A stretch of DNA of 64,000 nucleotides, taken from Carnobacterium divergens (lineage in GTDB: Bacteria > Bacillota > Bacilli > Lactobacillales > Carnobacteriaceae). The translations under genes and the position numbers were made by a program. The notes under the pieces were generated by a model, which worked only from the letters and a program-made list of their open reading frames with translations, was not told where the DNA came from and ran no database searches. Every line of letters starts with the position of its first letter. Positions within the stretch are counted from its first letter, which is position 1. The stretch spans positions 1,253,246 through 1,317,245 of the forward strand of contig NZ_LT992558.1 in assembly GCF_900258435.1 (NCBI RefSeq). Reading direction: 5' to 3'. This document shows, piece after piece, positions 12,685 through 56,071 of this stretch.

Positions 12685-12820
12685 TTAAAAACTCCTTTCT
12701 ATTCCATGTTGAAAGATGAGTTTAATTTATAAAGAAAAAGTTAATAAATGTTCCGAGTGGTTGTAATTTGACCTTCAAATGTAATAATTGGAATGAATGA
12801 TTCGAAAGGAGGGGTGCAGA

Positions 12821-13549
12821 ATGAATATTGCAATTTGTGAAGATGAAGAAATTTATCAACAAATGTTACTGGAGAAGTTAAAGAAATATCAAGAAAAATT
12901 TCATGGGAAACTAAAAATCGAATGGTTTAAAAATGGCGAAGAATTACTGGAGATTTACCGCTATTCAAGTCATCGTTTTGATGTTCTCTTTTTAGATATT
13001 AAATTAGAAGGATTAAGTGGCATGGAGGTTGCTAAAAAAATTCGTAAAATGGATCAGCAAGTAGAATTAGTTTTTTTAACAAGTTTGATGGAGTACGCTA
13101 TTGAAGGATACCAAGTGAATGCATTGCGGTATCTACTTAAACCCATTCAACAAGCGCAGCTAAATGATTTGTTAGACTTGATTATAACCAAGCGAAAAGA
13201 AGAAGTTCTGACAATTTCAACAAAATTTGGACAAAAAAAAATCGTATTAAAGGAGATTGCGTATATTGAAAGTAAGCAGCGAAAACTATACTTCCATTGC
13301 AATCAAGAAGTCGATAAGATGTATGGTAAAATTGGAGAATTTGCTATTACGTTAGCCAATAACAATTTTGTTAGGCCCCATCAATCCTATTTAGTACAGT
13401 TGGAATTTGTCAAAGAATTAAAAAAAGACCATTTAATTTTAGAAGATGGCTCTTTGATTCCAGTTAGCAAAGGATACGCAAAAACATTTAAAGCCGCTTT
13501 CTTTGATTATTTATCACAAGGAGGTGGGAATTATGAAGGACTTTATTGA
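12821..13549 (+). CDS. LytTR-type response regulator
   Basis: A 242-residue response regulator of the AgrA/ComE type. The receiver domain (about residues 1-120) has the acidic pair in ICEDEE, the phosphoacceptor Asp in VLFLDIKLEG (about residue 58) and Lys in RYLLKPI (about 106). The LytTR DNA-binding domain covers about 135-240 (IAYIESKQRKLYFH, VRPHQSYLV, LIPVSKGYAK). AAAGGAGGGG precedes the ATG at 12821. The kinase gene starts inside its 3' end (17-nt overlap). Confidence 0.92.
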   Translation: MNIAICEDEEIYQQMLLEKLKKYQEKFHGKLKIEWFKNGEELLEIYRYSSHRFDVLFLDIKLEGLSGMEVAKKIRKMDQQVELVFLTSLMEYAIEGYQVNALRYLLKPIQQAQLNDLLDLIITKRKEEVLTISTKFGQKKIVLKEIAYIESKQRKLYFHCNQEVDKMYGKIGEFAITLANNNFVRPHQSYLVQLEFVKELKKDHLILEDGSLIPVSKGYAKTFKAAFFDYLSQGGGNYEGLY

Positions 13550-14831
13550 GTGGATTTCTCTTAATTGGGGATATTCAGACTTTATGGAAGCAGTAGCGGA
13601 ATCCTTTTTGATTTACTATTTTTTTAGTCGATTAGTTGGAAAGACTCAAGTGAATAAGGTCCTTTTATTTCCAGTCTTTTTTTGTTTAGATTTAACGGTT
13701 ACTTATTTCGAACAATTTTCTTTGATTCCTTATTTTATTGCCTTGGCAACAAGTTTATATATTAGCAGTCGCTTTTTTACAGGCAGTCGAAAAGCACGTT
13801 ATATTTTACTATACGGGTTCATTACAATCATAGTTGAGAGTAGCGTAGGACATATTTCAAGTGGGTTATATATCGTTTCAAGCACTTTTGAACAAGTGGA
13901 TTCGCTTAAACATGTCTTTTTTTACTTATGTAGTGATCTCGTGCAGTTTTATTGCATTCAGTTGGTAGTATTGAAAAAAAATTACAAAGAAAGAGCGTTG
14001 TATTTGAATGCGAGCATTACAACTTTATTGGTTACCATCACGATTATTTTAGTGTACAATTCATTACTAGTTGTTTATTTAGAAAACAATCCAATTTTTC
14101 GTTTGCTTTCAGTCGGGTCAATAATAACAATGATACTTGGCAGTTATTTTGTCTTGCAATTATTAGGAAAATTGGAAAGACAATACAAAGTAGAATTTGA
14201 AAACAACACACTAAATGAACAACTCTATTATCAAAAACAAACCCAATTAAAAATTTTAGCGAATCAAAATGAAATTAGAGGAATGAAACATGATCTAAAA
14301 AATCAATTGATCATTATGGAGCACCTACTTAAAAAGGGGCATTACCAACAACTAGAACACTATTTTTCAGAATTAGAATTAACCAAAATAGACGACTATC
14401 AAACGATTTTTACAGATAATGTAATGATTGATAGCATGATTCTGCATTTGGAAGAACGCTGTAAAGAGCAACATAGTCAATTTGATTTATCCGTATTCCC
14501 TATCAAATTCCAACTCGTAAACGAAAAGGATGTTGCTATTTGTTTAGGAAATGCCTTTGACAATGCGATTGAAGCGGTTAATAAAATCTCAAGTGGTCAA
14601 AAAAGAATCACCCTTCAATTTAAAGTGAAAAATGGGTATCTAATTATTTTAATCACGAATAGTGTTTCAAATCAAGAAATTGATCCTTTGAGTACAAGCA
14701 AAAAAGATCAATTGAATCATGGTTTCGGTTGGAAAAACATGCAGAAAATTACAACAAAATACAATGGAGAGGTAAAATTTGAAAAACACGACAAAACTGT
14801 AACCGTACGGTTGATTTTTAAAGATTATTAA
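13533..14831 (+). CDS. GHKL-type sensor histidine kinase, AgrC/ComD class
   Basis: A 432-residue kinase with six or more hydrophobic segments in residues 1-215 and a cytoplasmic kinase part. The phosphoacceptor His is in RGMKHDLKNQL (about residue 253), the N-box in GNAFDNAIEA (about 338) and a glycine box in NHGFGWKNM (about 397). Class members usually sense secreted peptides. No peptide precursor or exporter gene is adjacent, so the signal is unknown. ATG at 13533 follows GGAGGTGGGAATT. Divergence from the SEDS pair suggests control of cell wall synthesis; this is inference. Confidence 0.9.
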   Translation: MKDFIEWISLNWGYSDFMEAVAESFLIYYFFSRLVGKTQVNKVLLFPVFFCLDLTVTYFEQFSLIPYFIALATSLYISSRFFTGSRKARYILLYGFITIIVESSVGHISSGLYIVSSTFEQVDSLKHVFFYLCSDLVQFYCIQLVVLKKNYKERALYLNASITTLLVTITIILVYNSLLVVYLENNPIFRLLSVGSIITMILGSYFVLQLLGKLERQYKVEFENNTLNEQLYYQKQTQLKILANQNEIRGMKHDLKNQLIIMEHLLKKGHYQQLEHYFSELELTKIDDYQTIFTDNVMIDSMILHLEERCKEQHSQFDLSVFPIKFQLVNEKDVAICLGNAFDNAIEAVNKISSGQKRITLQFKVKNGYLIILITNSVSNQEIDPLSTSKKDQLNHGFGWKNMQKITTKYNGEVKFEKHDKTVTVRLIFKDY

Positions 14832-15214: not shown

Positions 15215-15399
15215 GATATATATCCTCCAATCAAATGATTACTGTTTTTAGTATACCATTTTCCGCAAAAAAAGATAATTGAATCCACTAAAAAAGCAAA
15301 TAAAAATCACTTTTATGATGATTTTATAAAATTAATCCCGAACCAGTTAAAATCTTTATAGAAATACGATATAATAAAGAAGGTAAATCAAATATCTAA

Positions 15400-15454
15400 A
15401 GGAGGGTAGATCACAAATAAAAAGAAATTCTACTTATTTGTGAGTATACACATG
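15400..15454 (+). promoter_or_regulatory. Ribosome binding site separated from the pepA start by a stem-loop
   Basis: A strong ribosome site AAGGAGGG at 15399-15406 lies 46 nt before the ATG at 15452, too far for normal use. Between them TCACAAATAA (15411-15420) and TTATTTGTGA (15434-15443) form a perfect 10-bp stem with a 13-nt loop. Folding would bring the site to about 13 nt from the ATG. A TATAAT (15370-15375) lies upstream. Confidence 0.55.
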
Positions 15455-34336: not shown

Positions 34337-34475
34337 GTTGAGAAAACAAAGCAGAAGCACCCGCTTCTCGCCTTAGTAGACAAATGTCGCTGGGCTAGAT
34401 ATAAAAGATGATATCTTGCGTAATGCAAGTTCGGATATTTATAGGCGGGTTCATATAGAACTCGTCTATTTTTCT
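34337..34475 (+). ncRNA. L20-type leader of the infC-rpmI-rplT operon
   Basis: A structured 5' leader precedes infC. It has an early hairpin (GCAGAAGC with GCTTCTCGC), a middle region, and a terminator-like stem of 12 pairs (34441-34452 with 34458-34469) followed by TTTT. In Firmicutes such a leader binds ribosomal protein L20 and causes early termination, so L20 limits its own operon. The position and terminator are seen; the L20 binding is by analogy. Confidence 0.72.
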
Positions 34476-34507
34476 GCTGTACATTCTCGCGAATTTGATG
34501 GAGGTGA

Positions 34508-54985: not shown

Positions 54986-56071
54986 ATGGAAGAAAAGGAA
55001 TTGCAATTATTAAAAGATTTAACAGATGCAAAAGGGGTTCCAGGAAATGAAGGAGCCGTTCGAACTGTTTTCGTTAACTATGCAGAAAAATATGCGGATA
55101 ACATTAGCTTTGACGGTTTAGGAAGTGTGATTGCAAAACAAGTCGGAGACGCATCTGGACCGAAAGTATTATTTGCAGGTCACCTAGATGAAGTCGGTTT
55201 TATGGTTACAGGAATCACTGAAGAAGGCTTTCTTAAGTTTCAAACCTTAGGTGGTTGGTGGTCACAAGTAATGTTAGCGCAACAAGTTGAAATTACAACT
55301 GGCAAAAATAAAACAATTCATGGCGTAATTGGCTGTAAACCACCCCATGTGTTAACTGCTGAAGTACGCAACAAAGCCTATGAGATTGCCGATATGTTTA
55401 TCGATATTGGCGCAACGAATAAAGAAGAAGCTCTTAGCTGGGGAGTTAAACCAGGAGATATGGTGACGCCTTATATCGAATTTAAGCGTTTGAATGATTC
55501 TAAGTTTTTATTAGCAAAAGCGTGGGATAATCGAATTGGTTTAGCAGTGACACTAAGAATTTTAGAAAACTTAAAAGCATCATCACATCCAAATATTGCT
55601 TTTGGAGCAGGAAATGTTCAAGAAGAAGTTGGTTTGCGTGGTGCAAAAACGGCTACTCATATGGTTGATCCAGATATTGCTTTTGCATTAGATACTGGAA
55701 CAGCCGGAGACACTCCTGGGATGACACCTAAAGAAGCCGATTCTAAATTAGGTGAAGGGCCACAAATTATTATTTACGATGCGTCAATGGTCGCTCATAA
55801 AGGGTTACGTGATTTTGTCGTAGGTGTAGCTGAAGAATTAGAAATTCCTTTCCAATATACAGTGATTGCTGGTGGGGGAACTGATGCAGGAAGTCAACAT
55901 GTGAGTAAAAATGGAATTCCAGCCTTAGCGATTACAGTGGCAACACGTTATTTACATTCTCATACTTCAGTTATTCATGAAGACGATTATTTAAATACAG
56001 TGAAACTCATGACAGAAGTCATTAAACGCTTGGACAGTGAAACCGTTAAGAAAATTAAATTTGGTTCATAA
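54986..56071 (+). CDS. M42 family metallopeptidase (YsdC-like)
   Basis: A 361-residue second M42 aminopeptidase in the window. Metal motifs: [36 protein letters not shown] and [10 protein letters not shown], final His in LHSHTSVIH. It differs from pepA in having Leu for Met in the first motif and other substrate-pocket residues, so specificity probably differs. GGAGG precedes the ATG. Placed after two OppA genes, it may digest imported peptides. Confidence 0.92.

Follow-up and report, generated by a model that had tools for sequence, protein, structure and literature searches.

A hairpin apparently bridging a split ribosome-binding site upstream of pepA in Carnobacterium divergens and other Lactobacillales

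The gene pepA of Carnobacterium divergens, encoding a glutamyl aminopeptidase of the M42 family, lies in the 64,000-nucleotide (nt) stretch of contig NZ_LT992558.1 analysed here, which we refer to as the window and whose first letter is position 1 of the coordinates below; the source genome is 2.8 Mb in 4 contigs. Upstream of pepA, a strong Shine-Dalgarno (SD) sequence is separated from the start codon by a hairpin, and it is this leader, along with its counterparts in related bacteria, that we consider as a candidate split ribosome-binding site. Its parts are as follows.

15347..15375 (+): promoter-like site TTAAAA-17-TATAAT, inferred, with 10 of 12 consensus matches
15398..15406 (+): distant SD sequence AAAGGAGGG, anti-SD pairing -11.0 kcal/mol
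15407..15410 (+): linker of 4 nt from SD to stem
15411..15420 (+): 5' arm of the bridging stem, TCACAAATAA
15421..15433 (+): loop of 13 nt, which may hold three extra inner pairs (15423-15425/15429-15431)
15434..15443 (+): 3' arm of the bridging stem, TTATTTGTGA, containing an in-frame GTG (15440-15442)
15444..15451 (+): linker of 8 nt from stem to start codon
15452..16531 (+): pepA, glutamyl aminopeptidase (M42), ATG start, 359 amino acids (aa), NCBIfam TIGR03107 and Pfam PF05343

The protein scores 590.9 bits against TIGR03107 (cut-off 469.7) and 329.8 bits against PF05343, and the PepA alignment begins at residue 1 in most orthologues among the matches listed. Within the distant SD, AAGGAGGG occupies 15399-15406, and 45 nt lie between the SD and the ATG at 15452; the original prediction was right about a strong distant site and one nucleotide out in placing it 46 nt away. 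No SD was found near this ATG in the window (near-SD score 0, versus -11.0 for the far site). All ten pairs of the stem (15411-15420/15434-15443) are Watson-Crick by direct reading, in agreement with the perfect 10-base-pair (bp) inverted repeat and 13-nt loop already described. Folding does shorten the SD-ATG gap as proposed, taking out 33 nt, and the unpaired remainder is 12 nt (4+8) rather than about 13. The promoter-like site would place the transcription start at about 15382, which is upstream of the SD. Sites of this type are barely enriched in the pepA region (9 found versus 7.8 expected in shuffles, standard deviation (sd) 2.7); in 70 of the 79 hairpin-bearing orthologues described below, a TATAAT precedes the SD by no more than 75 nt.

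Chance was considered as the origin of the hairpin and is unsupported, both by shuffling of the spacer and by a control on 392 genes of the same genome. The predicted folding energy of the 45-nt spacer is -10.2 kcal/mol; its 200 dinucleotide-shuffled versions give -3.39 +/- 1.92 (z -3.55), and a single one of them folds as well, while a 101-nt context folds less distinctively against its shuffles (z -1.93, 8 of 200 as good). In a longer context, the SD is unpaired with probabilities of 0.99-0.57 except for its last G (0.08), and the AUG with probabilities of 0.96-0.73; the predicted hairpin lies wholly between SD and AUG and leaves both free. The genome control covered 464 kb (the window plus 400 kb), with starts limited to the first 20 codons, there being an SD-like sequence at an internal pepA ATG. 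Seventy-five of the 392 predicted genes lack an SD near any start within that limit; 12 genes pass the bridging-hairpin rule set out below, three of them with shuffle p <= 0.05, namely pepA (0.015), a 311-aa gene (0.035) and a 94-aa open reading frame (ORF; 0.005). Because gene starts in this control are uncertain, some of the candidates are probably wrong starts.

The arrangement recurs widely among pepA orthologues of Lactobacillales. Under a fixed rule, a leader was taken as split if any SD near its ATG scored no better than -4 kcal/mol, if a distant SD scored -4.5 or stronger, and if there was one bridging helix of at least 4 bp with 5-18 nt outside it; G-U pairs were counted in the SD score, as GGGGG sites are otherwise misread. 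The sample of 110 orthologues consists of 18 from the family of C. divergens (the own family), 12 loci from a search of the order, and 80 chosen by rule from the matches listed, at most five per genus in listing order. These 80 include three extra loci (two from genus g15, one from g18), and genus g33, with 10 loci already in, was not enlarged; Streptococcaceae and Listeriaceae are represented by named loci alone. The rule is passed by 79 of the 110, in five of the six sampled Lactobacillales families: 17/18 in the own family, 27/42 in f2, 16/24 in f4, 8/12 in f6, 11/13 in f8 and 0/1 in f9. Through named loci, f2 can be assigned to Enterococcus, f4 to Trichococcus, and f6 to Marinilactibacillus, Alkalibacterium and Lacticigenium; f8, by its leader sequences, is probably akin to the Vagococcus leader L028. 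Shuffle p is 0.05 or lower for 72 of the 79, the single own-family locus that fails the rule has two helices, and the same leader is found in a Carnobacterium metagenome-assembled genome (locus L012) and in the own-family locus L099. Inspection by eye of the 31 loci that fail revealed six that still have the arrangement (L097, L138, L144, L161, L162, L199), a stem of only 3 bp in L167-L170, both a hairpin and a near SD in L153, and a partial match with no start located (L118).

A similar distribution is seen in named loci. Among 25 from Carnobacteriaceae and Enterococcaceae (L012-L034, L042, L077), some from the same genomes as in the 110-orthologue sample, 18 are split by a looser rule and 6 are ordinary; one of the 18, L027, rests on a 3-bp stem, and L021 makes a nineteenth via a long fold. 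Outside these two families, 53 of 55 named loci (mostly Bacillales, with 2 Listeria, 8 Streptococcus, and Dolosicoccus) have a near SD and 2 are unclear. The closer M42 paralogue has a near SD in 12 of 12 loci tested, taking the best in-frame start, in a control that left out the more distant M42 loci L007-L011 and the fragment L107. The window itself holds a second M42 aminopeptidase gene, a pepA paralogue (54986-56056, +), with an ordinary AAAGGAGG site near its ATG.

The geometry of these leaders was examined in 80 loci chosen without any hairpin condition, having no near SD and their strongest SD 13-70 nt away. Spacers between SD and ATG are 20-63 nt long in this set, and the unpaired remainder has an sd of 3.0 versus 7.9 for shuffled spacers. 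Spacer energy has a median of -8.7 versus -2.9 when shuffled, and one helix with 5-16 unpaired nt occurs in 75 of the 80 loci versus 900 of 1600 shuffles. For comparison, the median SD spacing in ordinary pepA leaders is 8 nt (48 loci). In the rule-selected set, the linkers measure 2-6 nt from SD to stem and 3-13 nt from stem to ATG, with the lower bounds and the sum of the lengths fixed by the rule itself; folded in their leader context, the pair probability averages 0.8 or more in 65 of the 79 stems. The longest case is that of Enterococcus innesii (L021), whose SD lies 129 nt before the ATG and whose branched fold (-36.6 kcal/mol, z -3.15, equalled by 2 of 200 shuffles) begins 2 nt past the SD and stops 8 nt short of the ATG; the L161 leader closely resembles it. 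The 120-nt spacer of L142 (f2) reaches z -5.37, with 0 of 200 shuffles as good. More generally, in eight loci of the Enterococcus family (L139, L141-L143, L145, L018, L019, L021) the spacer has lengthened to 88-129 nt and its folds are long or branched, and in these same loci the linkers beside SD and ATG stay short.

Across the orthologues, pairing is kept while the letters change. Among the 79 hairpin loci there are 64 distinct stems, 4-18 bp long, and the loops range from 3 to 96 nt. When the 5' arm of one locus is set against the 3' arm of another, the paired fraction is 0.78 for loci of one genus and 0.38 for loci of different genera, with about 6/16 expected by chance. In the aligned rows of the own family (11 of 18), 5 of 10 pairs have changed on both sides and are still paired, with exchanges including U-A/C-G, U-A/A-U and A-U/G-C; 94.5% of cells are paired versus 33-64% in slid controls, a value reached by 0 of 500 shuffles. 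The aligned rows of the Enterococcus family (10 of 42, 9 distinct) behave likewise, with 4 of 7 pairs changed on both sides and still paired, and 96.8% of cells paired versus 9-46% in slid controls (0 of 500 shuffles as high). The count of pairs changed on both sides separates less well, 31 of 500 shuffles being as high for the own family and 16 of 500 for the Enterococcus family. MAFFT misaligned L001 and L002, and its alignments A1, A2, A4 and A5 misplaced arms of unequal length; these and A3 were not counted. In a gapless test within genera, in which the structure of one locus is laid on another and every locus pair is counted both ways, changes on both sides kept the pairing in 12 cases and broke it in 3. 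On our best reading of these patterns, the pepA hairpin appears to be held by selection on structure, not sequence. The expectation that relatives would conserve the stem is borne out by the bridging hairpins of 79 of the 110 orthologues and their compensatory changes.

On a tree of 104 PepA protein sequences, all 42 split rows fall on one side of a single branch (SH-aLRT 100), a side that also includes 15 ordinary rows and 1 unclear row. Six changes suffice on the tree when 3 unclear rows are excluded; L077 (77 aa) was dropped for its length, and L099, L117, L118, L121 and L125 as near-copies or partial sequences, while L021 is labelled 'other' although its fold bridges. These data fit a single origin in a Lactobacillales ancestor followed by several losses, for which the candidate lineages are the E. 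raffinosus clade, one other Enterococcus, one Alkalibacterium, and the long-branched Streptococcus and Dolosicoccus; this is a quick tree, which cannot tell gain from loss.

The pepA leader is very probably a split ribosome-binding site that works like those of phage T4 genes 38 and 25. In such a site, the 30S subunit would pair with the strong SD at 15398-15406, and the hairpin, folding out 33 nt, would be accommodated on the ribosome rather than unwound; the 12 unpaired nt would then separate SD from AUG, and the AUG would reach the P site. The parts of the leader, the missing near SD, the predicted fold, the persistence of pairing through compensatory change across families, and the narrow spread of the remainder were computed directly. 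The functional steps for pepA are what we infer from them: ribosomes probably use the distant SD through the folded hairpin, and breakage of the stem would be expected to lower PepA synthesis.

Several observations weigh against a bridge held by selection. The rows used for covariation were picked for stems that could be aligned from the base, rows from relatives are not independent of one another, and 7 of the 18 own-family rows, including those of the window's genus, stand outside the covariation set. In the gapless test, changes on one side kept the pairing in 42 cases and broke it in 70; 63 of the 70 breaks are in Trichococcus, at pairs 6-9 and 12-14, with the outer five pairs never changing. 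The median remainder is 12 in both real and shuffled spacers, which differ in spread, energy and the presence of a single helix, and in leader context the mean pair probability is below 0.5 in 8 of the 79 stems. Finally, the arrangement is dispensable, about 19 of the 110 orthologues, judged by eye, lacking the hairpin and having a near SD that is ordinary or weak.

Excerpts of PMC3014915 describe a structure between SD and AUG that cuts the spacing from 22 to 5 nt in T4 gene 38, and a cut from 27 to 11 nt in gene 25; according to the same excerpts, destabilising mutations lower initiation, and the gene 25 arrangement is common to close T-even phages only (PMC3014915). As far as that account goes, pepA is like these genes in that structure between SD and AUG brings an over-long spacing to a working one, its folded spacing of 12 nt, compared with 5 and 11 nt, being within the working range. 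It differs in being a cellular, chromosomal gene with compensatory changes across several bacterial families, in spacers of up to 129 nt with branched folds, and in being known here from sequence and predicted folding. The initial suggestion of a gene 38-type start joined by a hairpin is thus strongly supported by the orthologue comparison. In Escherichia coli thrS, the hairpin stands upstream of the SD as part of the ThrRS operator, whereas in pepA it stands between SD and start codon and has no conserved sequence. The two are alike in placing a hairpin within the ribosome-binding region, which in thrS the ribosome accommodates, according to excerpts of PMC3936740. According to an excerpt of PMC13009471, Staphylococcus aureus depends more strongly on SD pairing and has a spacing longer by 2-3 nt, compared with E. 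coli.

Neither a split site for pepA nor a cellular gene with its SD upstream of such a hairpin was found in open-licence titles and abstracts, among the matches listed. To our knowledge, sites split between SD and AUG and joined by a hairpin are known from a few phage T4 genes only, thrS being related. What we describe is apparently a real, rare and conserved split ribosome-binding site, with a mechanism known from phage and a setting and depth of conservation that seem to be new; it resembles an uncommon phage T4 device that cells have retained for a long time in a version of their own. With spacers of 20-129 nt and changing stems, the pepA leaders amount to a natural mutation series for the structures that the 30S subunit accommodates between SD and P site. 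Genes of this kind will be overlooked by start-site callers and models of ribosome-binding sites that expect the SD at one set distance.

How a split site works is a separate question from why it has been kept. A plausible answer to the latter, to which we give somewhat less than an even chance, is a constructive neutral ratchet: an insertion once split the SD from the AUG, and the hairpin stays solely because its breakage does harm until a new near SD arises. The wide drift of loops and spacers (21-129 nt) agrees with this, as does the presence of a near SD instead in several lineages, such as the E. raffinosus clade; a near SD should be easy to evolve, however, and yet the hairpin is kept in 79 of 110 orthologues. 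The ratchet concerns the why, and is compatible with the split-site explanation of the how. It seems rather unlikely that separation of SD and start was selected because it is beneficial, making the leader a sequence-free RNA device common to several families. For example, the 30S subunit might bind the SD of a nascent transcript that does not yet extend to the AUG, and begin translation only after the whole leader has emerged and folded. If so, pepA would be a cellular gene that is translated on condition that a conserved bridging structure forms, and we know of no earlier cellular gene of that kind. Neutral retention and a beneficial role, for instance through early 30S docking on the nascent leader, both agree with the data.

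We consider it unlikely that the hairpin is a regulated switch sensing heat, a protein or a small RNA, with pepA translation restricted either to its folded or to its opened state. Regulation is conceivable for a peptidase gene with a conserved, structured leader, and retention in several families suggests some benefit. Against this, the stem is predicted to remain folded from 0 to 70 C, the arms of different genera pair at chance level, and no Rfam family matches the pepA leader at gathering score. The original prediction had put forward dependence on temperature or on a binding protein. Temperature sensing is unsupported, because the stem stays folded over that whole predicted range and stem strength varies widely among relatives. 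RNA thermometers and SD-sequestering leaders also place a hairpin in the initiation region; in pepA, unlike these, SD and AUG are outside the helix, and melting would part them rather than free them, and the leader was rejected as a thermosensor. A sequence-specific binding protein is unlikely because of the chance-level pairing between genera and the range of loops from 3 to 96 nt. A known RNA family was likewise rejected, the leader giving one sub-threshold Rfam match, on the other strand (19.8 bits versus 50, E 0.16).

The distant SD might instead stabilise the 5' end of the mRNA, as the Stab-SD sequences of Bacillus cry3A and hbs do in Gram-positives, with pepA starting SD-independently at its ATG. 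The strong SD does lie close to the inferred 5' end; a stabilising role accounts neither for the compensating hairpin nor for the narrow spread of the remainder, and is very improbable.

We also give hardly any credence to a translation start upstream of 15452, whether at GTG 15440 or at some non-standard codon that follows the SD, with the stem as coding sequence. The frame upstream of the ATG is open from 15410 in the window, and the GTG said to lie inside the stem is indeed in its 3' arm and in frame. However, no ATG, GTG or TTG stands at SD distance downstream of 15398-15406 in the window, and the spacers of the 79 orthologues fall into all three classes of length modulo 3 (20, 34 and 25). 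An in-frame stop interrupts the spacer in 47 of the 79, and a general coding extension through the stem was rejected on this ground. An upstream ORF is likewise unsupported as a general account. Some start codon occurs 2-12 nt after the SD in 26 of the 79 spacers (ATG in 5), and some species may have a short upstream ORF, of which the window has none; in the window, whose spacer is open, GTG 15440 may serve as a start.

It is extremely doubtful that the inverted repeat acts in DNA, as a binding site for a repressor or activator, rather than as an RNA structure. It does lie a short way downstream of the promoter-like site, but genera differ widely in half-site sequence and in spacing (loops of 3-96 nt), and G-U pairs are used in the stems.

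Three further observations were made. A CNNM membrane protein gene (PF01595; L211:2225-3535, minus strand, also in L229, L230 and L231) has the leader GGAGGTG-TGGG(loop)CCCA-AT-ATG and is a possible second split ribosome site, falling narrowly short of the cut in the genome control (p 0.055); in a sister species the arms are kept and the spacer is 2 nt shorter. Elsewhere in the window, an L20 leader (RF00558) is matched at 34343-34479 (+) with 59.9 bits against a gathering score of 58.7. Upstream of pepA, a LytTR response regulator gene is followed by an overlapping gene for a GHKL-domain sensor kinase (12797-14831, +), a pair which we take to have the look of quorum sensing.
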